In this document: positions 2,557 through 14,112 of the stretch, piece after piece
Layout of the letters: every line of letters begins with the position of its first letter
How positions within the stretch are numbered: the stretch's first letter is position 1
Origin: Alphaproteobacteria bacterium
Lineage (GTDB): Bacteria > Pseudomonadota > Alphaproteobacteria > Reyranellales > Reyranellaceae
Direction of reading: 5' to 3'
Assembly (NCBI GenBank): GCA_017308235.1
Contig: JAFKFL010000007.1
Location: 372,001-436,000, forward strand
DNA: 64,000 nucleotides
The notes under the pieces: generated by a model
What the model was told of the DNA's origin: nothing
Seen by the model: the letters and a program-made list of their open reading frames with translations, nothing else
The model's database searches: none
Position numbers and translations under genes: made by a program

Positions 2557-4002
2557 GTGTCGCGTGTCGACCGCGCCTCTGGCGCCTCCATCCCTCATCC
2601 GCCATCCATCGACCGCATGGCCAACTGGCCGGCGCTCGCGCTCCTGATCGAGCGCGTCGGCCGACCAATGGTCGTGGAGACCCTGCGCGCCTGGGCTGAG
2701 GCGAAGCGCGGTGCGCCCGACGTCGCCGATCTCGATGCCTGTGCCCGCTGGTGCGGCGAGCGGCTTGCAGGCCTCGCCCAGCCGTCGCAGCGGCGCGTCT
2801 TCAACCTTACCGGCACGGTACTGCACACCAATCTCGGCCGCGCGCTGCTTGCTGAGGAGGCGATCGAGGCGGCGGTTGCCGCCATGCGCTCGCCCACGAC
2901 CCTGGAGTATGACCTTTCGGATGCGGGCCGCGGCGAGCGTGACGACCACATCGCGCCCTGGCTCTGCCGGCTGACGGGCGCGGAAGCCGCGACCGCGGTC
3001 AACAACAATGCCGGCGCCGTGCTGCTGGCGCTCAATGCGCTTGCTGCCGGTCGAGAAGTGATCGTCTCGCGCGGCGAGCTGATCGAGATCGGCGGCGCCT
3101 TCCGCATCCCCGACATCATGGCGCGCGCCGGCTGCCGGCTGGTCGAGGTCGGCACCACCAACCGCACGCACCTGCGTGATTACGCCAATGCGATCGGGCC
3201 CGACACGGCCGCGATCATGAAGGTGCACCCCTCGAATTATGCCGTGCAGGGCTTCACCAAATCGGTGAGCGCCGCCGAGCTGGTGCCGCTGGCGCGCGCG
3301 AAGGGCCTGCCGGTGATCGAGGATCTGGGCAGCGGTACGCTGGTCGATCTCGAGACCTGGGGCCTGCCGCACGAACCCACCGCGCGCGAGGCGATCGTGG
3401 CCGGCATCGATGTCGTGACCTTCTCCGGTGACAAGCTTTTGGGTGGGCCGCAGGCGGGGCTGCTGGTCGGGCGCCGCAACCTGATCGAGCGCATCGCCAA
3501 GAACCCGATGAAGCGCGCGCTGCGGCTCGACAAGGTGCGGCTGGCAGCGCTCGAGGCAACCCTGCGCCTCTACGCCGATCCCGAACGCCTGGCCAGGCGC
3601 CTGCCAACCATCCGCGCGCTCGCGCGGTCCGAGATGGAGATTCAGGCGCAGGCCGAGCGCGTGCTGCCGAAACTTGCGGCGGTGCTGGGCGCGGAGTGGA
3701 AGGCCGGACTGAAGCCGGTGCGCGGCCAGATCGGCTCGGGCGCGCTGCCGGTCGATCTCCTGCCGTCGGTTGCGCTCGCTGTGACGGGCCGCAGCCTCGA
3801 CAAGCTTGCCTCGGCGTTCCGCCGACTGCCAATCCCGGTGATCGGCCGCATCGAGGACGACACGCTGCTGTTCGACCTCCGCACGCTGGACGATGAAGCA
3901 GCTTTCGTGGCGCAGCTTCCGGAGCTCATTTCTTCCAGACCGCGAGCTTCCAGCTCGCTCATGAACATGAGCGCGCAGGATGCGCGCGGTCCAAAGACAT
4001 GA
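2557..4002 (+). CDS. selA: L-seryl-tRNA(Sec) selenium transferase
   Basis: Converts seryl-tRNA(Sec) to selenocysteinyl-tRNA(Sec) using selenophosphate and PLP. PPSIDRM near the start matches the family's N-terminal signature, and [14 protein letters not shown] holds the PLP lysine, K293 from this start (K295 in E. coli SelA). The GTG at 2557 has an AAGGA 9 bases upstream and gives 481 residues, near the family length; ATG 2521 and GTG 2488 are in-frame alternatives. The last 25 or so residues (from [10 protein letters not shown]) are encoded by a palindromic repeat and are not part of the normal fold. The stop overlaps the selB start (ATGA). Confidence 0.95.
3930..3993. repeat. REP-like palindromic element inside the selA 3' end
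   Basis: TTCTTCCAGACCGCGAGC at 3930-3947 matches the hairpin arm at 2442-2459 in 17 of 18 bases. The sequence then continues with short nested palindromes and ends in GCGCGGTCC. It supplies the reading frame for the last SelA residues and runs up to the selB start codon. Confidence 0.6.
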
Positions 4003-5894
4003 TCGTCGGCACGGCGGGGCATATCGATCACGGCAAGACGGCGCTCGTGAAAGCGCTGACCGGCGTCGATGCCGATCGCTTGAAGGAGGAGAAGGCGCGC
4101 GGCATCACCATCGACCTCGGCTATGCCTACTCGGACCTGGGCGACGGCCGACAGCTCGGCTTCGTCGACGTGCCGGGCCACGAGCGCTTCGTGCACAACA
4201 TGCTAGCCGGCGCGACCGGTATCGATGCGGCGCTGTTGGTCGTCTCGGCGGCCGAGGGCATCAAGCCGCAGACTGTCGAGCATCTGCAAATCGTCGATCT
4301 GCTGGGGCTCGATCGCGGCTTGGTCGCGCTCACCAAGGCCGACCTCGCGGACGACGACCAGCTCCTCGAACGCATGGCGGAGATCGAATCGCTGCTGAGC
4401 GGCACGGCACTCGCCGGTTCGGAGATCGTGCCGGTTTCCGCTCTGACAGGGCAGGGCGTGGACGAGCTCAAGGCCAAGCTCCTGGTGATGGGCGAAAGCG
4501 CCAAGGGCACGACCGGCTTCGCGCGGCTCGCGGTCGATCGGTGCTTCGTGCTGCCCGGCGCGGGCGTGGTCGTGACGGGCACAGTGCATGCCGGCGAGAT
4601 CCGCGTCGACGATCGGTTGCTGCTCACGCCCTCGGGGCTGGAGGCACGCGTGCGTTCGCTGCATGCACAGAACCGGCCGGCCGAGGTCGGTCGTGCGGGC
4701 GAGCGCTGCGCCCTCAACCTCAGCGGGCCGAAGCTTTCCAAGGAGGCCGTGCGGCGCGGCGACTGGGTGGTGAGCCCGGAGCTGCATCAGCCCTCCGACC
4801 GGCTCGACGTGCGGCTGAAGCTTTTGGGCTCCGAGCCGCAGCAGTTGAAGCACTGGTCTCCCGTGCATGTGCATCTGGGCGCGGCGCACGTGATGGGCCG
4901 CGTGGCGCTCCTGCAGGGTGATCGCATGGCGCCCGGCGAAACGGCGCTGGCGCAGCTCGTGCTTGAGGAGAAGGTGGGCGCCATCGCGGGTGACCGCGCG
5001 ATCCTGCGAGACCCGTCGGCCACGCGCACCATGGCGGGCGCCGAGGTGATCGATCCGTTCGGTCCGCCGCGCAATCGCCGCACGCCGCGCCGGCTGGCCG
5101 AGCTTGGCGCTCTCGCGACATCAGGCACGGGCTTTCTTGCCAAGTTGCTGGCGCTCGATGCAGGCCACGTCGACCTCGCACGGCTTTCGCTCGCGCATAA
5201 TCTGCATCAGGCCGAGGTCGATCGGCTGCTGGGTGAGGCGGGCGGCGTGCGCGTGCAGGGCTTCGGTTTTCTCGAGAGCACGCTCGACGCGGCGCGGCGC
5301 GACATCGCCGACACGCTCGCCGCCTTTCACAAGAGCAATGCCGACGCGCCAGGCCTGCAGCCCGAGCGGCTGCGCGTTGCGCTCAAGCAACGTTGGCCGG
5401 CGCGCGCTTTCCAGGCGCTGCTTGAGCGCGAAGTGGCGGCCAAGACGGTGGCGATCGACGGCGGCTTTGCGCGCCTGCCGGGCCACTCGCTGAAGCTCGG
5501 CGCGCGCGACGAGGCACTGTGGAAGAAGATGTCGGCCGATCTCACGCGCGAGCGCTTCCGTCCGCCACGCGTGCGCGACTTCGCGCAGGCCTATGGCGAG
5601 CCTGAGCCCAACGTGCGCAAGGTGCTGCGCCAGCTCGCGCGGCTGGGCCGCGTCGTCGAGGTGGCGCCCGACCAGTTCTTCCTGCGCCCGGTGGTGGCCG
5701 AGATGATCGCCGTCGCCCACGAGTTGGGGGCCGACTTCACCGCCGCGCAGTTCCGCGATCGCCTCGACAACGGCCGCAAGGTGGCGATCCAGATCCTCGA
5801 ATTCTTCGACCGCCACGGCATCACGCTCCGCCGCGGCGACCTCCGCCGCACGGTGCCGGCCAAGCTCCAGCAATACGGCCCGCCGCCGGAATGA
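3999..5894 (+). CDS. selB: Selenocysteine-specific translation elongation factor SelB
   Basis: 631 residues, normal length. It delivers Sec-tRNA(Sec) to UGA codons marked by a SECIS hairpin in bacterial mRNAs. The N-terminal GTPase has GHIDHGKT (residues 7-14), DVPGH (57-61) and TKAD (112-115), followed by beta-barrel domains. The C-terminal third, rich in charged helices, corresponds to the winged-helix repeats that bind SECIS RNA. The ATGA overlap with selA indicates translational coupling. tRNA-Sec follows 133 bases downstream, so the decoding set is complete apart from selD. Confidence 0.97.
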
Positions 5895-5901
5895 GGAAGG
5901 A

Positions 5902-5990
5902 TCCCTCGGCTTCGCCTCGGGATGACACCCATTGTTCGACGCACGCCTTGCGCCAAACCAAAATTGTCATCCCGAGGCGAAGCCGAGGGA
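5902..5990. repeat. 26-bp perfect inverted repeat between selB and tRNA-Sec
   Basis: The 26 bases at 5902-5927 are exactly complementary to 5965-5990, with a 37-base centre. The arms carry CCCTCGGCTTCGCCTCGGG, a type of dispersed repeat common in alphaproteobacterial genomes. In this position it could end the selAB transcript or stabilise its 3' end. Confidence 0.8.
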
Positions 5991-6027
5991 CCTTTCTTTC
6001 GTCTTTCCGATGAGTAATATCCGCCGC

Positions 6028-6123
6028 GGAGGGGAAGCGCTCCCGGTGGGGCGGCTGGCCTTCAAAGCCAGAGAGGGTCGCCAGACGGCTCTTAGTGGGT
6101 TCGACTCCCACTCTCTTCCGCCA
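6028..6123 (+). tRNA. selC: tRNA-Sec (anticodon TCA)
   Basis: 96 bases ending in an encoded CCA at 6121-6123. The acceptor stem is 8 bp with G-U pairs (GGAGGGGA with TCTCTTCC), the D stem is 6 bp (CGCTCC with GGGGCG) around a CGGT loop, the anticodon stem is CTGGC/GCCAG around CTTCAAA (TCA at 6062-6064), there is a long variable arm, and the T arm is GTGGG-TTCGACT-CCCAC. The 8-bp acceptor, extended D stem and TCA anticodon are the specific features of bacterial selenocysteine tRNA. Confidence 0.96.
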
Positions 6124-6144: not shown

Positions 6145-6939
6145 TCAATCCATGGCGTTCCCGAGGCGTGAAAGCCGGATCGGATCGCAAATGATGATGC
6201 TGTCATCATCATCGAGCTCGATAAGCCGTTGCTTTCTAAGCTTGGTGAAGGCGCGACTGATCGTTTCCGTTCTGAGGCCGAGATATTCGGACACATCGCT
6301 TCTCTTCATCGGCATGACGAGCGGCCGGACCTGGAAGCCATGCTCGCTATACGCCCTGGCCAACATCGAGAGGAAACTGGCGAGCCTTTCGGTCGACGTG
6401 AGCTGTCCTACGATCGTCAGATGCTGCCGGACGCGCTCCAACTTTTCCTGCAAAAGTGTCGCCATCGCGTCAGCGACATCGGGATTGCGATGGATGAAAG
6501 CATTGAAGCGTGACCGGTCGAATGCGCATGCCGTGACCGGCGTGATCGCCTCGCCGTCATAGACGTATTGCCCATTTATCTGCGTATAGCCGCAGATATC
6601 GCCAGGAAAGACCAAGGCGATGATCTGCCGGCGCCCATCGGGCAACCCCTTCGATACGGCTACGATTCCAGAAATGATCTTGAACAATGGGCCGGCAGGA
6701 GAGCCTGCACGGAACAAAAACTGGCGCGGCTCCCACTTGCTCTGGTGGCCAAGCTGGAACAGTTCTTTTTGTCGATCGTACTCGAGCGGTTTGCAGACAT
6801 TTTTTGCTTTGGCCGGACAGGTGAGACACGGCAACGGCTTTGCGATGCCCCGGCCGGTTATCACCGATGGAGGCCGTAAAGGCTGCGGCGCACTGTGAAG
6901 AACGAGCAACGCCACTCGTGAAGCTGCACTCACCCCCAT
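6145..6939 (-). CDS. Crp/Fnr-family regulator, FNR-like with N-terminal cysteines
   Basis: 264 residues: a cNMP-fold sensor domain, a dimer helix and a C-terminal HTH (MKRSDVSEYLGLRTETISRA). C38, C41 and C49 form an N-terminal cysteine group (C-x2-C-x7-C, spacing unlike E. coli FNR), and a cysteine in TACAFDRSRF aligns with the fourth FNR cluster ligand, so an oxygen-labile 4Fe-4S cluster is likely. GGAGG lies 9 bases before the ATG. A near-match to an FNR box (7016-7029) and a 16-base palindrome lie upstream, suggesting self-regulation. It converges on tRNA-Sec. Confidence 0.88.
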   Translation of the reverse strand: MGVSAASRVALLVLHSAPQPLRPPSVITGRGIAKPLPCLTCPAKAKNVCKPLEYDRQKELFQLGHQSKWEPRQFLFRAGSPAGPLFKIISGIVAVSKGLPDGRRQIIALVFPGDICGYTQINGQYVYDGEAITPVTACAFDRSRFNAFIHRNPDVADAMATLLQEKLERVRQHLTIVGQLTSTERLASFLSMLARAYSEHGFQVRPLVMPMKRSDVSEYLGLRTETISRAFTKLRKQRLIELDDDDSIIICDPIRLSRLGNAMD

Positions 6940-7015: not shown

Positions 7016-7029
7016 TGGACTTAAATCAA
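7016..7029 (-). promoter_or_regulatory. FNR/FixK-like box upstream of the FNR-like gene
   Basis: On the minus strand this reads TTGATTTAAGTCCA, one base from TTGAT-N4-GTCAA. It lies about 77 bases upstream of the regulator's ATG, which suits positive or negative autoregulation. Confidence 0.5.
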
Positions 7030-7157: not shown

Positions 7158-8015
7158 TCACTCGGGAAGTGAGGCTGTCGCATATAGGCCCAGCAACATG
7201 GGCGAAGGCTGCACCGACGGGCCGAACGTTGCGCCAAAGATCCTTGCTATTTGCCCCGACCGATAGATCGAACTCAGTTGTCGGTCGACGGCTAGGCGGA
7301 ACTCCTCGTCGCCTCGCCGCATGGCGAGAGCGTAGGGTTCCACGCTCAGGTAAGTGTCTGCCATGAGCAGATTGCCTGGTGTCTTCGCGCTCATGAGCAG
7401 AAAAGTGAGGATGCCTCGGTCGCCGAAGTAGGCGGCAACGGTTCCCTTTTCGACGGCATCAAGTCCTTCCTGATGCGTTTTTGCCGGAACAACCTCTGCG
7501 TTGACCTTCTTCGCGGTCAAAGCACGTCGGAGTTCGGCTTCCGTCGTCGTGCCCGCCAGGACCCCGACCTTCCTGGTGTCGAGGCTCTGGAGATCTTTCG
7601 GACCGTTCGGCTGGATGATGAAGCTGGCGCCGTCCACGAACGTCGGGATGGAGAAGCTGACTGTCTCACGTCGCTTCAGTGTCTGCGTAGTGGCCTCGCA
7701 CAACAGATCTGCCTTGTTGTTTACGATTGCGTCAAAGCGATCAGTAGAGGTGACTGGAACGTACGCTTCCTTGATGTCGATCCCGAGCTGTTTCCCAATT
7801 CCGGTGGCAACCGCACGACAGAGGTCGACGATGAAACCGGCGGGCGCAGCGGCGTTGCTCGCCGTGTAGGAAAAGGGCGGGGCATCCTGTCGGTAGGCGA
7901 GACGCAAGGTGCCACTTCCCCGTACGTCATCGAGAGTGCCCGCCGCAGCGACCCCCGCTTGAAGCGTTGCTGCCACCAAGACCACGGTGCTTACTGCTCT
8001 TGCGATCGCCACCAT
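7158..8015 (-). CDS. Periplasmic amino-acid-type solute-binding protein
   Basis: 285 residues from the ATG at 8015, which has AAGG 7 bases upstream; the frame is open to 8084 but the extra residues precede the signal peptide. A Sec signal (ARAVSTVVLVAATLQAGVAAA) is followed by a family 3 solute-binding fold: GTLRLAYRQDAPPFSY opens lobe 1, GFIVDLC and the DRFDAIVNNKADLLC segment follow, and KVGVLAGTTTEAEL opens lobe 2. Polar amino acids such as glutamate/aspartate are the usual ligands. No permease or ATPase gene is adjacent, so it may serve a transporter elsewhere or act as an orphan sensor. It is divergent from the DUF3300 operon. Confidence 0.85.
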   Translation of the reverse strand: MVAIARAVSTVVLVAATLQAGVAAAGTLDDVRGSGTLRLAYRQDAPPFSYTASNAAAPAGFIVDLCRAVATGIGKQLGIDIKEAYVPVTSTDRFDAIVNNKADLLCEATTQTLKRRETVSFSIPTFVDGASFIIQPNGPKDLQSLDTRKVGVLAGTTTEAELRRALTAKKVNAEVVPAKTHQEGLDAVEKGTVAAYFGDRGILTFLLMSAKTPGNLLMADTYLSVEPYALAMRRGDEEFRLAVDRQLSSIYRSGQIARIFGATFGPSVQPSPMLLGLYATASLPE

Positions 8016-8130
8016 TGCTGACCTTCGATTTTGAGAGAGAAGGATGCCGTCGATGTGAGCTCTCGGCGCTCGTCCTGCCATCACGGCGGTTCAACAATGG
8101 CACAGATACCGTGGTGATCCGGCGACCTCC

Positions 8131-8144
8131 TTGACAATAGTCAA
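8131..8144. promoter_or_regulatory. TTGAC-N4-GTCAA box (FNR/FixK/NNR type) in divergent promoter
   Basis: TTGACAATAGTCAA is a perfect 5+5 palindrome with a 4-base centre. It lies 61 bases before the DUF3300 start and 116 before the solute-binding protein start. The same 14-mer occurs again at 12360-12373. Confidence 0.6.
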
Positions 8145-8150
8145 TTCCGG

Positions 8151-8177
8151 ACAACGACCGTTGTTCTAGATATCTAG
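8151..8177. promoter_or_regulatory. Two further palindromes in the DUF3300 promoter
   Basis: ACAACG-AC-CGTTGT (8151-8164) and CTAGATATCTAG (8166-8177) are both perfect and lie back to back between the FNR-like box and the DUF3300 start at 8205. They could be additional operators or leader hairpins; nothing identifies the binding protein. Confidence 0.4.
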
Positions 8178-8204
8178 GCGGGAATCCACGGAACCGGAAA
8201 ATCA

Positions 8205-9470
8205 ATGAGCCCGCGCGGGAAGGAAGGCGATTCCAAATCGACCGCTGGATTGCATCGGCGTTACATGGTCGTTCTGTCTCTTGTAGCCCTTGGTGTCGCG
8301 GCAGCACGCCAATCGTGGGCACAGGGGGACAAGAAGCCGTTTTCGCCGGAGGAGCTCGACCAGATACTGGCGCCGATTGCACTCTATCAGGACGCGTTGC
8401 TGTCCCAGGTCTTGATGGCCGCGTCCTATCCGTTGGAAGTGGTCGAGGCGGCACGTTGGTCGCAAGCAAACCCCGCATTGAAGGGCGACGCCGCAGTAGC
8501 GGCGGTGAAGGACAAAAATTGGGATGTCAGTGTCAAGTCGCTGGTCGCGTTCCCGCCGGTACTGTCGCAGATGAACGATCATCTCGATTGGACGCAAAAG
8601 CTCGGTGACGCAATGATCGAGCAACAGCAAGATGTAGCTGATTCGATCCAACGGCTGCGCGCGCGTGCGGCCGATGCCGGCAACCTGCAGACCACCAAAG
8701 AGCAAGCGGTCAAGACCGAGACCTCTTCTGGAGGCGAACGCATTATTGTCATCGAGCAGGCAAATCCGCAGGTCGTCTATGTGCCGTCCTACAATCCAAG
8801 CTGGGCTTACGGGACCTGGCCCTATCCAGCCTATCCACCGGTCTACTATCCATTCGGTGGCGCGCTCGCGACCGGCTTCATGTGGGGCCTTGGCTTCGCC
8901 GCTGCGGGCGCGATCTTTGGCGGTTGGAACTGGGGGTATGGTGGCGGCAACAGTTATGTAAACGTCAACGCGAACCGCGCCGTGAACATCGACCGCAACT
9001 TCAACCGCGCCAATGTCGGCTCGGGCAACCGCTGGCAACACGACGCGGGACATCGTCGGGGTGTCGCCTATCGTGATTCTTCCACCCGTCAGAAATACGG
9101 TCAGTCGCGGCCTGGCGCCGAACAGCGGCAGCAGTTCCGGGGACGATCCGATCAAGCATCACGGCCAGGTAATGTCGCCAACGCGCGGCCCGGGCCGGGA
9201 GGCGCGGGCGGTGGGCGGCCGGGTCAGGGCAATGTCCGCGGCGGCCAGAACGCGGGCAATGCGCAGCAGCGCCGCGGCAATCAAGGCGGCCAGCGACAGG
9301 GGGGTGGCTTCAGCGGCGTCAATCGTGGTCAGCAGGTCAATCGGGAGGCAAACCGTGGCCGGGCGCAGCAGGGGAGGGCATCGTCGCATCGGTCAGGCGG
9401 CGGAGGGCGCCCTAGTGGTGGAGGTGGGCGTCCTGGCGGTGGTGGCGGTCGACCGGGAGGACGGCGATGA
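8205..9470 (+). CDS. DUF3300 exported protein
   Basis: 421 residues. A signal peptide (RYMVVLSLVALGVAAARQSWA) precedes a conserved globular part: SPEELDQILAPIALYQDALLSQVLMAASYPLEVVEAARW is the DUF3300 signature region, followed by VVYVPSYNPSWAYGTWPYPAYPPVYYP and a glycine-rich hydrophobic stretch. The last 150 residues are a low-complexity tail of G, R, N and Q with glycine-arginine repeats. The function of the family is unknown; exported location is inferred from the signal. The stop overlaps the next gene by 4 bases, forming a DUF3300-DUF2950 pair seen in other proteobacteria. Confidence 0.88.
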   Translation: MSPRGKEGDSKSTAGLHRRYMVVLSLVALGVAAARQSWAQGDKKPFSPEELDQILAPIALYQDALLSQVLMAASYPLEVVEAARWSQANPALKGDAAVAAVKDKNWDVSVKSLVAFPPVLSQMNDHLDWTQKLGDAMIEQQQDVADSIQRLRARAADAGNLQTTKEQAVKTETSSGGERIIVIEQANPQVVYVPSYNPSWAYGTWPYPAYPPVYYPFGGALATGFMWGLGFAAAGAIFGGWNWGYGGGNSYVNVNANRAVNIDRNFNRANVGSGNRWQHDAGHRRGVAYRDSSTRQKYGQSRPGAEQRQQFRGRSDQASRPGNVANARPGPGGAGGGRPGQGNVRGGQNAGNAQQRRGNQGGQRQGGGFSGVNRGQQVNREANRGRAQQGRASSHRSGGGGRPSGGGGRPGGGGGRPGGRR

Positions 9471-10381
9471 GCACCGAATTCTTGCGCGGACTTGCGGTCC
9501 TGGCCTTGGGGTTTTGGCTTTCCATGAGTGCCGCGGCGCAAGCACCGACTTCGTTGAAGAGCTTTCCCACCGCCGAGGCGGCGGCCGATGCGCTGACCGA
9601 CGCCATCCGGCGCGACGACGACAACGCTGTCGCGGCGATACTGGGCTCAGGCTGGCACGACTTTTTGCCGGGTTCGGATCGAGACGACGACGAGGTGCGC
9701 GCCAAGTTCCTCAAGGCATGGGATGAGAGCCACAAGATCGTGCCTGAAGGCGACGACAAGGCTCTGGTCGCAGTTGGCACGACGGGCTGGATTTCGCCCG
9801 TTCCCATCGTGAGGCAGGGTGGCGAATGGCGCTACGATGCCCAGGCCGGCGAAAAGGAGATCCAGGCGCGGCTCATCGGCCGAAACGAGCTGTTCGTCAT
9901 TCAGACGCTGCTCGCTATCGTCGATGCGCAACGCGACTATGTCTCTCTGGATCCGACGAAGGCCGGCGTTCCGGTGTATGCACGCCGATTGCTGAGCTCG
10001 CCTGGACATAAAGATGGCCTGTACTGGGAGAGCAAACCGGGCGAACCAGAGAGCCCGCTCGGACCCTTGGTGGCCAAGGCCCAGCCAGGCGAACTGAACG
10101 CCGATGACTATCACGGCTACCGTTTCCGTCTCCTCTATAGGCAGGGCCCGGACGCGCCCGGCGGCGCATACGATTACCTGGTCAAGGGCCGCATGATGGG
10201 TGGATTCGCCGTTTTGGCCTGGCCCGTCAGATATGACGAGACGGGTGTCATGACCTTCATGGTGAGCCAGAGCGGCGACGTCTACGAACAGGACCTGGGC
10301 CCGTCTACCGCCGAACGGGCGGCTGGCATTGCTTCGTTCAATCCCGATAAAGGATGGGAGAAGGCCGATATGACGCCTTAG
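9467..10381 (+). CDS. DUF2950 exported protein
   Basis: 304 residues with a signal peptide (RGLAVLALGFWLSMSAAAQA). KSFPTAEAAADALTDAIRRDD and GDDKALVAVGTTGWISPVP are typical of the DUF2950 N-terminal region, and YLVKGRMMGGFAVLAWPVRYDETGVMTF of its C-terminal part. The function is unknown. It is translationally coupled to DUF3300 through an ATGA overlap, and the two probably act together in the periplasm or at the outer membrane. Confidence 0.88.
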   Translation: MSTEFLRGLAVLALGFWLSMSAAAQAPTSLKSFPTAEAAADALTDAIRRDDDNAVAAILGSGWHDFLPGSDRDDDEVRAKFLKAWDESHKIVPEGDDKALVAVGTTGWISPVPIVRQGGEWRYDAQAGEKEIQARLIGRNELFVIQTLLAIVDAQRDYVSLDPTKAGVPVYARRLLSSPGHKDGLYWESKPGEPESPLGPLVAKAQPGELNADDYHGYRFRLLYRQGPDAPGGAYDYLVKGRMMGGFAVLAWPVRYDETGVMTFMVSQSGDVYEQDLGPSTAERAAGIASFNPDKGWEKADMTP

Positions 10382-10440
10382 AGGCGGGCATCGAGCGCCC
10401 TTGGCATGGAAGCATGTGACCTGTCCCGGATTATCTGCAG

Positions 10441-10827
10441 TCACGTTTTGGTAAAGCTCGCCGATCCTCGAAAGGTTGTGCCTCGTGTATAGACACCCGT
10501 CAGCTGGTTGCCGGTCCTCGCCAGTTCATATTTTCCTCCCAAAGCAGACTCGATGCTCAATGTTGAACCGGAGACAATGCCAAGACTGGTGTTCTTTGCG
10601 GAATCGGCTTTGTCTCCAAATGTCGAGACGAACGACTTGAGGGAGAACTCCATTTGGCCTTCGATCTGCCCGTTTGATTTGACGGCTGCGATGACCAGAC
10701 GCGCCTCGCCAATGCCTTCGATCTGACCTTTCCATTCGCCAATGAATGCGGATGCGCCCTGCTGCGTATGAGCCGGGGTGATGCTGAGAAACAGCGTGAG
10801 GAGAGCGGCCAGAAATTTCCTGCGCAT
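10441..10827 (-). CDS. Small secreted protein of unknown function
   Basis: 128 residues from the ATG at 10827, with GGAGGG 10 bases upstream; the frame extends to 10857 but those residues precede the signal. A signal peptide (RRKFLAALLTLFLSITPAHT) is followed by an all-beta sequence: WKGQIEGIGEARLVIAA, then GQIEGQMEFSL, SIESALGGKYELAR and LTGVYTRGTTFRGSASF. The repeated G-x-x-x-G-x-hydrophobic pattern suggests a small beta barrel of the kind that binds lipids or polysaccharide. I do not recognise a named family. It converges on the DUF2950 gene. Confidence 0.7.
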   Translation of the reverse strand: MRRKFLAALLTLFLSITPAHTQQGASAFIGEWKGQIEGIGEARLVIAAVKSNGQIEGQMEFSLKSFVSTFGDKADSAKNTSLGIVSGSTLSIESALGGKYELARTGNQLTGVYTRGTTFRGSASFTKT

Positions 10828-10995
10828 CGGAAAGGCACCCTCCCGGGTTTGGAGCAAGCCGGTGGCCCCTGACTAGTGACAATGCATCGCTTTACCAACG
10901 CGATCCTGTCCCACAGCGAGAGAGATACCGGCTGTTCGTGCAGGCCTTGATGGCCACGCGTTTGCAAGCAGTGCCGCCAAAGCCTGAAAGTCCAA

Positions 10996-11589
10996 TCAGG
11001 GCTTGCGCATTATTTGCGCGAACAGGAACTCGGCTTTTACGGCCGTCAGTTTATCTCCGGGTTTCACTCTTGGGAGAGATGCGCGCCCTTCCTGTGTGCG
11101 CACATCGAAGGTCAAGACTTGTCCGCCGGATGGCTGGACAAGCGAGATCGTATTGTTCGCGATGTCGGTCCTTACCACGGTCCAGGTGGATACGTCATAA
11201 GTCGCGACAAACCCGGCCGGCATCTCGTTGGCTCGTGAAGCAGCCATGGCGGCCACTTCTCGATTGGCTGGGGTGGCTGTCCCAGGCGCCGAAAGAACAA
11301 AGCTCAATCTCTCGTCCAGCGTCGCTTCGACGCGATCGCCCACCTTGACCAGATCGAGGCCTCCAACTCCCTCACTGACCCGGCCGCTAACGATTTTGCC
11401 GTTGGTCAGCTTCACCGTAACCTGGCGTGCCCGTGGATCGACTGCAGTAATCTGGCCTTCCGCCACGACACTGGTTGTCATCGTTATGCCGGCAATCGGC
11501 GACGCGGTGGAAGAACCTTGGGCCCAACCGGGGAATGCGGAGGCTAGCAGCAAGCCGGCTGCGGCCACCGCTGAATGGACAGGTCTCAT
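10996..11589 (-). CDS. Secreted protein of unknown function, possible duplicated OB-like domains
   Basis: 197 residues with a signal peptide (VHSAVAAAGLLLASAFPGWAQ). The mature part has two similar beta-rich halves: VVAEGQITAVDPRARQVTVKL with GDRVEATL, and WTVVRTDIANNTISLVQPSG with PGDKLTAV. This suggests a duplicated OB- or SH3-like barrel. I do not recognise a named family. It is the first of several small exported genes on the minus strand between 10.4 and 12.6 kb. Confidence 0.7.
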   Translation of the reverse strand: MRPVHSAVAAAGLLLASAFPGWAQGSSTASPIAGITMTTSVVAEGQITAVDPRARQVTVKLTNGKIVSGRVSEGVGGLDLVKVGDRVEATLDERLSFVLSAPGTATPANREVAAMAASRANEMPAGFVATYDVSTWTVVRTDIANNTISLVQPSGGQVLTFDVRTQEGRASLPRVKPGDKLTAVKAEFLFAQIMRKP

Positions 11590-11657
11590 TGACTACTCCT
11601 TCACCTGGAAATGGTACTGCTCGGGACGCTTCGTCCCACAATCTGCGGTCTCGCTTG

Positions 11658-11987
11658 TTACCGTTTTGCGAGATTGGCCTTCTCCGCCACGATCGCCCGG
11701 TCGATCACCGTGAACAGGTAGGCTTCGGGAGCAAGCGTGCAGCCGCCGCGGACCAGCATGCCGAGCTGGCCTCCCCGTTCATCGGTCGGAAGGGTGACGC
11801 CTCGGTAACGCGCGGCATGCTCGGCCAGGAAGATCGCAAGCTGTCGCCGTGCATCGGGCTGCATGGCCTGCGCCTCTCGACAGGTCACATAGGCGGCCTG
11901 ATCGAAGGTCAACCGCCCGCCTTGGGCGCTGGCTCCGATCGGCAGAAGGAGAAGGATGGCCGCCGCAAGGAAGCTCTTGGCTGACAT
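11658..11987 (-). CDS. HdeA-like small periplasmic protein
   Basis: 109 residues. After a signal peptide (SFLAAAILLLLPIGASA), the mature chain begins LTFDQAAYVTCREAQAM and ends with GGCTLAPEAYLFTVIDRAI. The two cysteines, C36 and C83, are 47 apart, close to the disulfide spacing of HdeA, and the helical pattern matches. HdeA/HdeB proteins are acid-activated periplasmic chaperones. The match is by pattern only. It is 21 bases upstream of the glycine-zipper lipoprotein gene's stop on the same strand, so they may be co-transcribed. Confidence 0.5.
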   Translation of the reverse strand: MSAKSFLAAAILLLLPIGASAQGGRLTFDQAAYVTCREAQAMQPDARRQLAIFLAEHAARYRGVTLPTDERGGQLGMLVRGGCTLAPEAYLFTVIDRAIVAEKANLAKR

Positions 11988-12008
11988 GCTACATTGCCTC
12001 CGCTGGAT

Positions 12009-12227
12009 TCATTTGTCGCCGATGGCGCTGCCGCCGAGGTAACCGACGGCACCGCCGATCAGACCGGCACCTACGACCTGGCCAAAGCTGCCGCCGGTCA
12101 CGAGGCCGATGCCTGTACCGGCCGCCGCACCGACCGCTGCACCCTTTTCGCCTGACGTCATTGGCCGATCGCAGGCGGCCGTGACGCTCATGAGTCCGAT
12201 CAATACGATTGCGATCGTCTTGGTCAT
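12009..12227 (-). CDS. Glycine-zipper lipoprotein
   Basis: 72 residues. The signal ends in a lipobox (SVTAAC, C19), so the mature protein is lipidated. The rest is a glycine zipper: GEKGAAVGAAAGTGIGLVTG followed by GQVVGAGLIGGAVGYLGGSA, the pattern that packs helices in outer-membrane lipoproteins such as those of the OmpA-associated SlyB/YMGG type. An identical FNR-like box (12360-12373) lies 133 bases upstream. Confidence 0.8.
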   Translation of the reverse strand: MTKTIAIVLIGLMSVTAACDRPMTSGEKGAAVGAAAGTGIGLVTGGSFGQVVGAGLIGGAVGYLGGSAIGDK

Positions 12228-12359
12228 GTTTCCCTCATTCTACATTCGCCCCCTTCGGGAGGTCGGTGCGTCCGCTTTGAAGCATCGTCGAAAGGAACTG
12301 AAGGGTTTCCACAGTGTGCCGCCACCAAAAATTGGTAGCGCATCGGTTGGTCGCCCTCC

Positions 12360-12373
12360 TTGACAATAGTCAA
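12360..12373. promoter_or_regulatory. Second copy of the TTGACAATAGTCAA box
   Basis: Identical in all 14 bases to the box at 8131-8144, and the flanks CTCC and T are also shared. It lies upstream of the glycine-zipper lipoprotein gene. The rest of the 12228-12463 gap shows no gene. Confidence 0.6.
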
Positions 12374-12463
12374 TCAGCGCTTCCTGCTCGGGATACCGCC
12401 TCTTGATCGGACGCAGGTTTGTCGAAGGGCGTTATTGAGCTATTGGCAAGGGAATGGAAGCTT

Positions 12464-12613
12464 TCACATCAACGTATGCGATCGCGACCTGCGGGATCGG
12501 CGGCGGCGCTGAATGAAGGCGAGCATCAACAGGATCAGGGGGACGCCGAAGAACGCGACAACGTCCCAGAGGCTAATATAATCAACTAGATCAGCAATCG
12601 CGGGGTCGCCCAT
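12464..12613 (-). CDS. Small single-span membrane peptide
   Basis: 49 residues from the ATG at 12613, with GGGAG about 9-10 bases upstream. It has an acidic N-terminus (GDPAIADLVDY), one hydrophobic helix (VVAFFGVPLILLMLAFI) and a strongly basic tail (QRRRRSRRSRSH). The charge pattern predicts a C-terminus in the cytoplasm. I recognise no family. The start at 12679 gives a longer version without its own signal features. Confidence 0.5.
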   Translation of the reverse strand: MGDPAIADLVDYISLWDVVAFFGVPLILLMLAFIQRRRRSRRSRSHTLM

Positions 12614-12724
12614 GTTGCCAATTCTCCCTCGGCGACATTGTAGGACTGCCGCGCGGGGCAAGGCCATGCGTTTGATCAATCAGGCGGCGCAAGTCGGATA
12701 ATCGGCTGCCAAATTGGGACCGTT

Positions 12725-12738
12725 TTGACTTTAGTCAT
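12725..12738. promoter_or_regulatory. FNR/FixK-like box upstream of the patatin gene
   Basis: TTGACTTTAGTCAT differs from the perfect TTGAC-N4-GTCAA palindrome by one base and lies 73 bases before the patatin-like gene start. Confidence 0.5.
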
Positions 12739-12810
12739 GAACTGCGGTCGGTTCATTCGATAGCTTCGAACATTCGGATCGGCAGGGATTAGCGGCTCTT
12801 GATATTACCG

Positions 12811-14112
12811 ATGGGCGAGTCATTGGATGCCGTGCGACGCTCGTCCCGAGGGATGCGGCGTCGATTGGTGATGACGGGGATGGCATCGGTCGCGCTTGGG
12901 GGATGCGGCGCGCCATCTCGATTGGCCTCTCTGCCTGAGAGATTGCGAGGCACTTCGACTTTCTACGGCCTGCCCGGCGATACGCGCGTGGTTCTCGATG
13001 GCACCGATGACGCCCTCATGGGCCGCATAGCGGTCGAAGCGTTGCAACGCGAACTGGCCTATGACGAGCGTACGGGCATCAAACTGACGGACACGGCAGA
13101 CTACCTGGCCATTTCAGGTGGCGGTGAGAATGGTGCTTATGGGGCGGGCATCCTGACGGCCTGGACGGAAACGGGCTCCCGGCCGACGTTCAAGGCGGTG
13201 ACAGGCGTCAGCACAGGCGCATTGATTGCGCCGTTTGCTTTTCTTGGACCGTCCTACGATGCGCAGCTGGAGCGCTTTTATACCACTATTGAACAAAGCG
13301 ATGTGATGATATCGCGGGGGTTGATCACCGCCGTCTTGAGCGATTCGATGTACGATCCCTCGCCGTTGTTGCGGACGATCCGGAGCGTGATAACGCCGGA
13401 TACGGTGGCGGCGATCGGCCGTGAATATTCGGAAAAGGGACGCCTGTTCTTTGTTTCCACGGCGAACCTGGATGTTCCGGTCGGTGTCTTGTGGAACATC
13501 GGCAGCATCGCGGCGAGCGGCAACCGGGACGCTCCTGAGCTGATTGCCAAGATCCTGCTCGCATCGGCTTCGATTCCAGGCGCCTTTCCGCCTGTCATGA
13601 TTGACGCGAGTGCGGGCACCGAACATTTCCAGGAGATGCATGTTGACGGCGGCACCGTAGCGCAGGTCGTTTTCTATCCGCCGTCCTTTAGCGGCAAGGA
13701 GTTGTTGCCCAGCACAGGTGACAATGCCGACTACCTGGGGCGGGTCATTCTGAAACGCAAACGTCGGCTCTATGTGATTCGTAATTCACGGCCCGGGTCC
13801 GATCTCGAGACCGTCGACCGGAGCACGCTGAAGATCGCTGGCCGTGCCATTTCCACGTTGATCAGCACGCAAGGCATAGGCGATCTCTATCAGCTCTACA
13901 CGATCGCTCAACGTGACCACATCGATTACAACGTGACCTACATACCGGCGAGCTTCTCCGAAAAGCTGCGCCAGCCCTTCGATCGACAGTACATGAACAA
14001 GCTCTACCAACTCGGGCGCGAGACAATGAAGGCGGGCCGCGCCTGGTCCAAGCATCCGCCGGGCTATGATCCCACGCCACTCAGTCAAGTACGTGCGCCA
14101 ACGGCTACATAG
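12811..14112 (+). CDS. Patatin-like phospholipase lipoprotein
   Basis: 433 residues from ATG 12811; TTG 12799 and ATG 12853 are alternatives. An arginine-rich n-region leads into a lipobox (VALGGC, C32), so it is membrane-tethered. The patatin fold is clear: SGGGENGAYGAG at about 102-113 forms the oxyanion hole, GVSTG (132-136) holds the serine nucleophile S134, and HVDGG carries the catalytic aspartate D279. It should hydrolyse acyl esters of lipids at the envelope. Its promoter has an FNR-like box. Confidence 0.9.
   Translation: MGESLDAVRRSSRGMRRRLVMTGMASVALGGCGAPSRLASLPERLRGTSTFYGLPGDTRVVLDGTDDALMGRIAVEALQRELAYDERTGIKLTDTADYLAISGGGENGAYGAGILTAWTETGSRPTFKAVTGVSTGALIAPFAFLGPSYDAQLERFYTTIEQSDVMISRGLITAVLSDSMYDPSPLLRTIRSVITPDTVAAIGREYSEKGRLFFVSTANLDVPVGVLWNIGSIAASGNRDAPELIAKILLASASIPGAFPPVMIDASAGTEHFQEMHVDGGTVAQVVFYPPSFSGKELLPSTGDNADYLGRVILKRKRRLYVIRNSRPGSDLETVDRSTLKIAGRAISTLISTQGIGDLYQLYTIAQRDHIDYNVTYIPASFSEKLRQPFDRQYMNKLYQLGRETMKAGRAWSKHPPGYDPTPLSQVRAPTAT

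Follow-up and report, generated by a model that had tools for sequence, protein, structure and literature searches.

A four-cysteine FNR-type regulator and its probable low-oxygen regulon in a Reyranellaceae bacterium

Our analysis concerns a stretch of 64,000 nucleotides (nt) from an alphaproteobacterium of the family Reyranellaceae (assembly GCA_017308235.1, contig JAFKFL010000007.1, positions 372,001 to 436,000), which we call the window. It carries a gene for a regulator of the FNR type and, close by, copies of the box TTGAY-N4-RTCAA in front of genes for exported proteins. We think it quite likely that this regulator, with its four cysteines, is a low-oxygen class II activator of the boxed genes around it. 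The regulon is a real one of a known kind, compact and local. What would be new is the tie between the gene pair DUF3300-DUF2950 and low-oxygen control, a response that we infer from the sequences.

Regulator and boxes in the window

The regulator scores above the cut-offs of both PF00027 and PF13545, which places it in the Crp/Fnr superfamily. Its nearest solved structures are FixK2 (4i2o, the best match in the PDB) and FNR of A. fischeri. A preliminary description of this DNA had reported an FNR-like gene with N-terminal cysteines, and our results bear this out: besides the Crp/Fnr domains, the protein has four cysteines in FNR positions, of which C138 aligns with the fourth cysteine of A. 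fischeri FNR, and an ExxSR recognition helix. The seven cysteine and recognition residues named in Table 1 are invariant across 10 aligned sequences. Eight Crp/Fnr proteins exceed the Pfam cut-off in the genome, and when we read their sequences we found CxxCx7C together with ExxSR in the regulator alone.

The assignment of the cluster-ligating residues of FNR is established. The four cysteines and the ExxSR helix are those of the oxygen-sensing FNR subclass, and TTGA boxes are enriched as well. The type that senses nitric oxide (NO), DNR/NnrR, lacks the FNR cysteines, which are present here. Oxygen is the probable signal, the four cysteines being the single argument for it. In FNR itself, four essential cysteines hold a [4Fe-4S] cluster and NO is a secondary signal, as stated in the part of the source available to us (PMC4505428).

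The exact 14-mer TTGACAATAGTCAA occurs at both 8131 and 12360, and the identity between the two copies extends to 20 nt in all (CCTCCTTGACAATAGTCAAT). A near copy, TTGACTTTAGTCAT, lies at 12725-12738, and a degenerate copy, TTGATTTAAGTCCA, is read on the minus strand of 7016-7029, 76 nt upstream of the ATG of the regulator (6939). All four sites are where the preliminary description had placed them, but the interval it gave for the feature (8131-12738) leaves out the regulator gene itself (6145-6939). With at most one mismatch to TTGAYNNNNRTCAA there are 11 sites in the window, compared with 3.5 ± 1.9 in shuffled sequences, and none of 100 shuffles reaches 11. Six of these 11 sites fall within the 8.0 kb of the window that is intergenic; the labels coding and intergenic come, here and throughout, from our own simple gene caller. 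The boxes precede three groups of exported-protein genes (DUF3300/DUF2950, glycine-zipper and patatin), as had been claimed, and related genomes support this well. The glycine-zipper gene starts 132 nt from the box at 12360, which refines the earlier account.

A box upstream of the regulator itself had also been proposed. The site exists, but it is degenerate and lies outside the promoter geometry found in relatives. In the nearest relative, G015, where the ATG at 6939 and the surrounding sequence are also present, a perfect TTGATCAAAATCAA stands upstream of the FNR gene. Among 25 loci, G015 is the only one with a strict box in this place, which makes the case for autoregulation weak. G015 also has a second FNR paralog (L106:11493-12242), 59% identical to the window protein, adjoining the first and divergent from it, and one box lies between the two.

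Boxes across the genome and the genus

We call TTGAY-N4-RTCAA the strict motif and use the same pattern reversed as a control. The source genome (6.3 Mb, 42 contigs) contains 19 strict sites and four control sites. Nine of the 19 are intergenic and 10 lie inside genes (p = 2e-4 if 12.6% of the DNA is intergenic, a fraction taken from the window). For the form TTGAC-N4-GTCAA all six genome sites are intergenic.

We took the genus to be Reyranella. The search for DUF3300 covered 101 genomes, that for the regulator 65 genomes of the genus. In the genus we counted strict boxes over 40 loci: 60 fall in intergenic DNA, which totals 61.7 kb, and 18 in the 541 kb that is coding, where miscalled gene starts probably account for some of them. 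The preliminary description had named equal frequency of boxes in coding and intergenic DNA as a refuting outcome, and these counts speak for the description. In these loci only TTGA is abundant among 12 letter orders of the half-site (the 11 permuted orders occur at most twice each), and only a gap of 4 is abundant among spacings of 0 to 8 (gaps 0-3 and 5-8, at most two each). We reject chance dyads on account of the excess over shuffles and over the reversed control, together with the enrichment of a single spacing in relatives.

The boxes also follow the regulator. The median number of strict motifs is 28 in the 51 genomes with an FNR-like match and 10 in the 14 without (p = 3e-7), while the reversed control is four in both groups. 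DUF3300 is boxed in 10 of the 81 genes examined, and all ten come from genomes that have a close FNR, meaning a best match of at least 174 bits (six genomes with best matches of 144-153 bits were counted as without). Counted by genome, this is 10 of 23 with a close FNR versus none of 29 without (p = 7e-5). Some genomes with a boxed DUF3300 gene hold further copies of it, and no box was found at those. G015 has the same TTGACAATAGTCAA in the region separating DUF3300 from the solute-binding gene, and in G004 and G023 patatin and DUF3300 diverge from one shared strict box.

Several other families are boxed more regularly: polyphosphate kinase 2 (PPK2) in 16 of 23 members (20 loci), an exported family of 211 amino acids (F1) in 13 of 14 loci, the glycine-zipper family in 10 of 11 loci, window included, and DUF3141 in five of seven. 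For family F3 the box is 238-292 nt upstream in eight of 10 loci, that is, before the glycine-zipper gene. Boxes in relatives also precede genes for phosphotransacetylase, DUF2252 and universal stress proteins, and the source genome has one before an acetate kinase-phosphoketolase pair. Since metabolic and stress genes are boxed in relatives and in the source genome, the "oxygen- or NO-linked envelope regulon" of the preliminary description keeps its FNR-type core, but "envelope" is too narrow. What the gene content suggests looks like a general low-oxygen survival regulon.

Some further observations belong here. A family of 145 amino acids (F8) adjoins PPK2 and is also found in loci of S. meliloti and Rhizobium; a Pfam search with one member each of F8 and F1 gave no match. 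In L134, L138 and L139, loci chosen around a more distant FNR paralog, the boxes of universal stress protein genes have a TGCA- or TGCG-like spacer (TTGACCTGCATCAA), which may point to another sub-regulon that prefers a different spacer. Contig C35 (G000; L101, L105) carries genes that we read as nitrate reductase-like and a Crp/Fnr gene whose product lacks the FNR cysteines. Strict boxes on it precede ackA-phosphoketolase and a DUF2267/host-attachment gene pair.

Promoter geometry and alternative readings

When box and gene are oriented alike, 33 of 61 pairs have an A at +37 and a T at +41, counted from where the box begins; at other offsets the count never passes seven. Judged by sequence, this is a -10 element that would place the box centre at -41.5. 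The accessible part of one study gives -41.5 as the activating position at most promoters of E. coli FNR, and states that repression is possible from other positions (PMC3688515). One shared offset in more than half of the pairs is thus what FNR class II promoters should look like, with start positions predicted from sequence. The signal is present in 10 of 15 PPK2 promoters, 11 of 12 of the 211-amino-acid family and eight of nine of the glycine-zipper family; most single genes are without it. TA occupies the predicted -12/-11 at the window boxes 8131, 12360 and 12725, and in G015 it does so in both directions from the DUF3300 box. Of the ten DUF3300 genes with a box, A...T is found at offset 36 or 37 in seven. 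The window gene and that of G015 show TA but not the later T, and the tenth shows neither. At 19 Bradyrhizobium-type promoters, A...T stands at offset 36 in 13 and at 37 in four, which gives a centre of -40.5 or -41.5. The nosR start, with a FixK2 box, is placed 40.5 nt from the box axis in the portion of the source that we saw (PMC5582078).

The mechanism we propose is as follows. The regulator would most likely hold a [4Fe-4S] cluster on its four cysteines. At low oxygen the cluster would be stable and the protein would dimerise. The dimer would then bind the boxes at 8131, 12360 and 12725, each predicted to be centred some 41.5 nt ahead of the start site, and would recruit RNA polymerase in class II activation. 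The genes switched on would be DUF3300-DUF2950 (perhaps also the divergent solute-binding gene), the run of genes beginning with the glycine-zipper lipoprotein, and the patatin lipoprotein gene.

A number of points speak against this proposal. The -10 signal comes almost wholly from three ortholog families, and only five of 20 families or singletons contribute to it. Among the window sites, the T at -7 is present at 12725 only. Thirteen of the 23 FNR-bearing genomes have no DUF3300 box, the distance between box and DUF3300 gene is variable, and the genome and locus counts from related species are not independent. Finally, the NCBIfam equivalog cut-offs are far from reached (FnrL 124.8 of 300, FixK 100.4 of 300, Fnr 76.2 of 228). 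Hence, as far as its sequence tells, the regulator is an FNR-type protein, yet none of the named equivalogs FnrL, FixK or Fnr.

One could also argue that a different Crp/Fnr paralog binds the boxes, such as the cysteine-poor protein encoded next to the nitrate reductase operon of C35, which perhaps answers NO or nitrate. There are eight candidates above the Pfam cut-off, and C35 combines nar-like genes with its own Crp/Fnr gene and two strict boxes. However, no other paralog has ExxSR in its recognition helix, the DUF3300 box tracks the gene for the window-type regulator (P0001-type) across the genus, and in many genomes a P0001-type gene is found within a few kilobases of the boxed genes. We consider this explanation unlikely.

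We also doubt that the window regulator binds the boxes and represses, or represses as well as activates. FNR can do so from other positions (PMC3688515, in the part available), the degenerate autoregulatory site is out of place for a class II promoter, and two of the three window promoters are without the -7 T. A centre of -41.5 in three promoter families, and of -40.5 in 13 of the 19 Bradyrhizobium-type promoters, argues for activation instead. That TTGACA is an ordinary sigma-70 -35 element, or part of a duplicated promoter, with the dyad arising by chance, is very improbable and we reject it: both identical boxes do start with TTGACA and have 20 nt in common, but in relatives the spacer and the C/T position vary while both half-sites are kept, a spacing of 4 alone is enriched, and the distance from the -10 to TTGAC is 30 nt, not 17. 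Activation by the four-cysteine regulator is therefore the reading we retain, and the features on which it draws are collected in Table 1.

Table 1. Positions of the regulator gene, boxes, candidate -10 elements and neighbouring genes in the window (aa, amino acids).
Feature	Position	Strand	Remarks
FNR-type regulator, 264 aa; C-x2-C-x7-C and fourth Cys (C38, C41, C49, C138); recognition helix E225-S228-R229	6145..6939	-	Pfam cNMP_binding + HTH_Crp_2
Degenerate box TTGATTTAAGTCCA, candidate autoregulatory site, upstream of regulator	7016..7029	-	No -10 at expected place
Solute-binding protein (SBP_bac_3), divergent from DUF3300	7158..8015	-	G015 ortholog, 82% identity, faces same box
Candidate -10 TATCTG, class II spacing from box 8131, towards solute-binding gene	8103..8108	-	TATTTG at same place in G015
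Box TTGACAATAGTCAA between divergent solute-binding and DUF3300 genes	8131..8144	.	Identical in relative G015
Candidate -10 TAGATA, class II spacing from box 8131, towards DUF3300	8167..8172	+	TAAGAA in G015
DUF3300 protein, exported	8205..9470	+	Pfam PF11737, E 4e-81
DUF2950 protein, exported; 4-nt overlap with DUF3300 gene	9467..10381	+	Pfam PF11453, E 9e-104
Small exported protein (F10; without Pfam match), final gene in the minus-strand run from box 12360	10441..10857	-	
Exported protein, 197 aa, no Pfam match	10996..11589	-	Ortholog in G015
Exported protein, 109 aa, family F3, downstream of glycine-zipper gene	11658..11987	-	
Glycine-zipper lipoprotein, 72 aa, weakly TraT-like (24 bits, cut-off 31)	12009..12227	-	
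Candidate -10 TACCAA, class II spacing from box 12360	12332..12337	-	
Box TTGACAATAGTCAA (TTGACTATTGTCAAGG towards glycine-zipper gene)	12360..12373	.	
Near-copy box TTGACTTTAGTCAT upstream of patatin gene	12725..12738	+	
Candidate -10 TAGCTT, class II spacing from box 12725	12761..12766	+	
Patatin-like phospholipase, probable lipoprotein	12811..14112	+	Pfam PF01734

On the other side of the regulator, a gene of 631 amino acids that we read as selB-like is followed by a tRNA-Sec gene (6027-6123), the two together spanning 3999-6123; the tRNA-Sec gene lies just upstream of the FNR gene, on the opposite strand. Between the selB-like gene and tRNA-Sec, at 5896-5996, is an inverted repeat with 48 nt arms, 81% complementary and 5 nt apart, which may be a dispersed repeat element.

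DUF3300-DUF2950 elsewhere and known systems

DUF3300 is rare in the class (18 of 385 genomes). One class genome of 8 Mb has two strict boxes, which prompted a search of family f172. From 55 matching genomes we sampled 30 loci, one per genome; 12 have a box, and these 12 belong to a single group of similar sequences. Among the named Bradyrhizobium genomes that we reached through loci, six of eight have DUF3300, and seven of the eight DUF3300 genes in those six are boxed. A quick tree of 135 DUF3300 domains requires at least six changes of the box label; well-supported branches force four of them, and gains are indistinguishable from losses.

FNR control of every DUF3300 operon is rejected, because 71 of the 81 genes from the Reyranella search, 18 of the 30 f172 loci and all 13 other loci of the class (three of them badly framed) have no strict box. 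Nor did we find one near DUF3300 in Cupriavidus CH34, Paraburkholderia phymatum, Eleftheria, Rhizobium NXC24 or Phyllobacterium. On pSymA of S. meliloti, one strict box lies about 540 nt from DUF3300 and about 275 nt from a divergent gene that we take to be arcA (the arc gene names at this locus are our assumption), so its target is ambiguous. In three of these genomes we noted the neighbours of DUF3300-DUF2950: acetate/propionate kinase, phosphate acetyltransferase and DUF3141 genes in Eleftheria, PPK2 and the 145-amino-acid family in Rhizobium NXC24, and the latter family with arginine deiminase-type genes in S. meliloti.

We looked for solved-structure relatives of DUF2950 and DUF3300 and found none that convinced us, and single-sequence AlphaFold models were uninformative (predicted local distance difference test, pLDDT, of 38 for DUF2950 and 47 for the DUF3300 domain). 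The portion of the literature that we saw describes the pair as always co-localised and bearing signal peptides, with induction in two RNA-seq studies of nodules and with its function unknown (PMC4653623). Searching the literature with locus tags of Bradyrhizobium or S. meliloti did not lead us to the DUF3300/DUF2950 genes in expression data. We would give even chances to the idea that DUF3300-DUF2950 is a low-oxygen envelope module captured more than once by FNR/FixK-type regulators, namely a four-cysteine FNR in Reyranella and, in Bradyrhizobium-type loci, regulators acting on FixK-like boxes. Nodule induction would then reflect microoxia and not a role in the interaction with plants, which, if true, is the simpler account. 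Two exported families without a function in the literature on them, as far as it was available, now have a candidate regulator, signal and promoter geometry, and for Reyranella there is an in-silico outline of a low-oxygen regulon. Our literature search found no paper on such a regulon in Reyranella, or on microoxia as the account of DUF3300-DUF2950 nodule induction.

With the pair described in PMC4653623 our loci have the genes, their order and their export in common. In its accessible part, that paper draws on RNA-seq of nodules to infer that the pair has a role in plant interaction, whereas here we see FNR boxes in Reyranella loci with no plant interaction in evidence. A second point of comparison is the low-oxygen-activated lxa locus of Burkholderia, which includes universal stress proteins (PMC6127331; also covered in PMC3759415), and a third the microoxia-induced genes of B. 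diazoefficiens, among them phosphoketolase, universal stress protein, host-attachment protein and RND efflux genes (PMC6515984), each source seen in part. Similar kinds of genes occur in our relatives and on contig C35, but the window cluster is small, and DUF3300/DUF2950 are not named in the parts of those accounts available to us. Another paper, of which we also had a part, deals with one Bradyrhizobium protein (PMC4287336).

FixK/FixK2 of rhizobia provides the best PDB match of the regulator. The FnrN/FixK consensus, given as TTGANCNNGATCAANG in the text we could consult (PMC4999443), broadly fits the boxes, including the G after the box. FixK2 differs in acting under FixLJ control, according to the portions of the literature we saw, while the window regulator has the FNR cysteines. 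The closest likeness in design is to FNR, FnrN and FnrL, with which the regulator shares the Crp/Fnr fold, the N-terminal cysteine cluster, the aligned fourth cysteine, the ExxSR helix, the TTGAY-N4-RTCAA target and class II spacing. It differs from them in its C-x2-C-x7-C spacing, in scoring under the Fnr and FnrL equivalog cut-offs, and in its probable targets, which are mostly exported proteins and polyphosphate or acetate metabolism.

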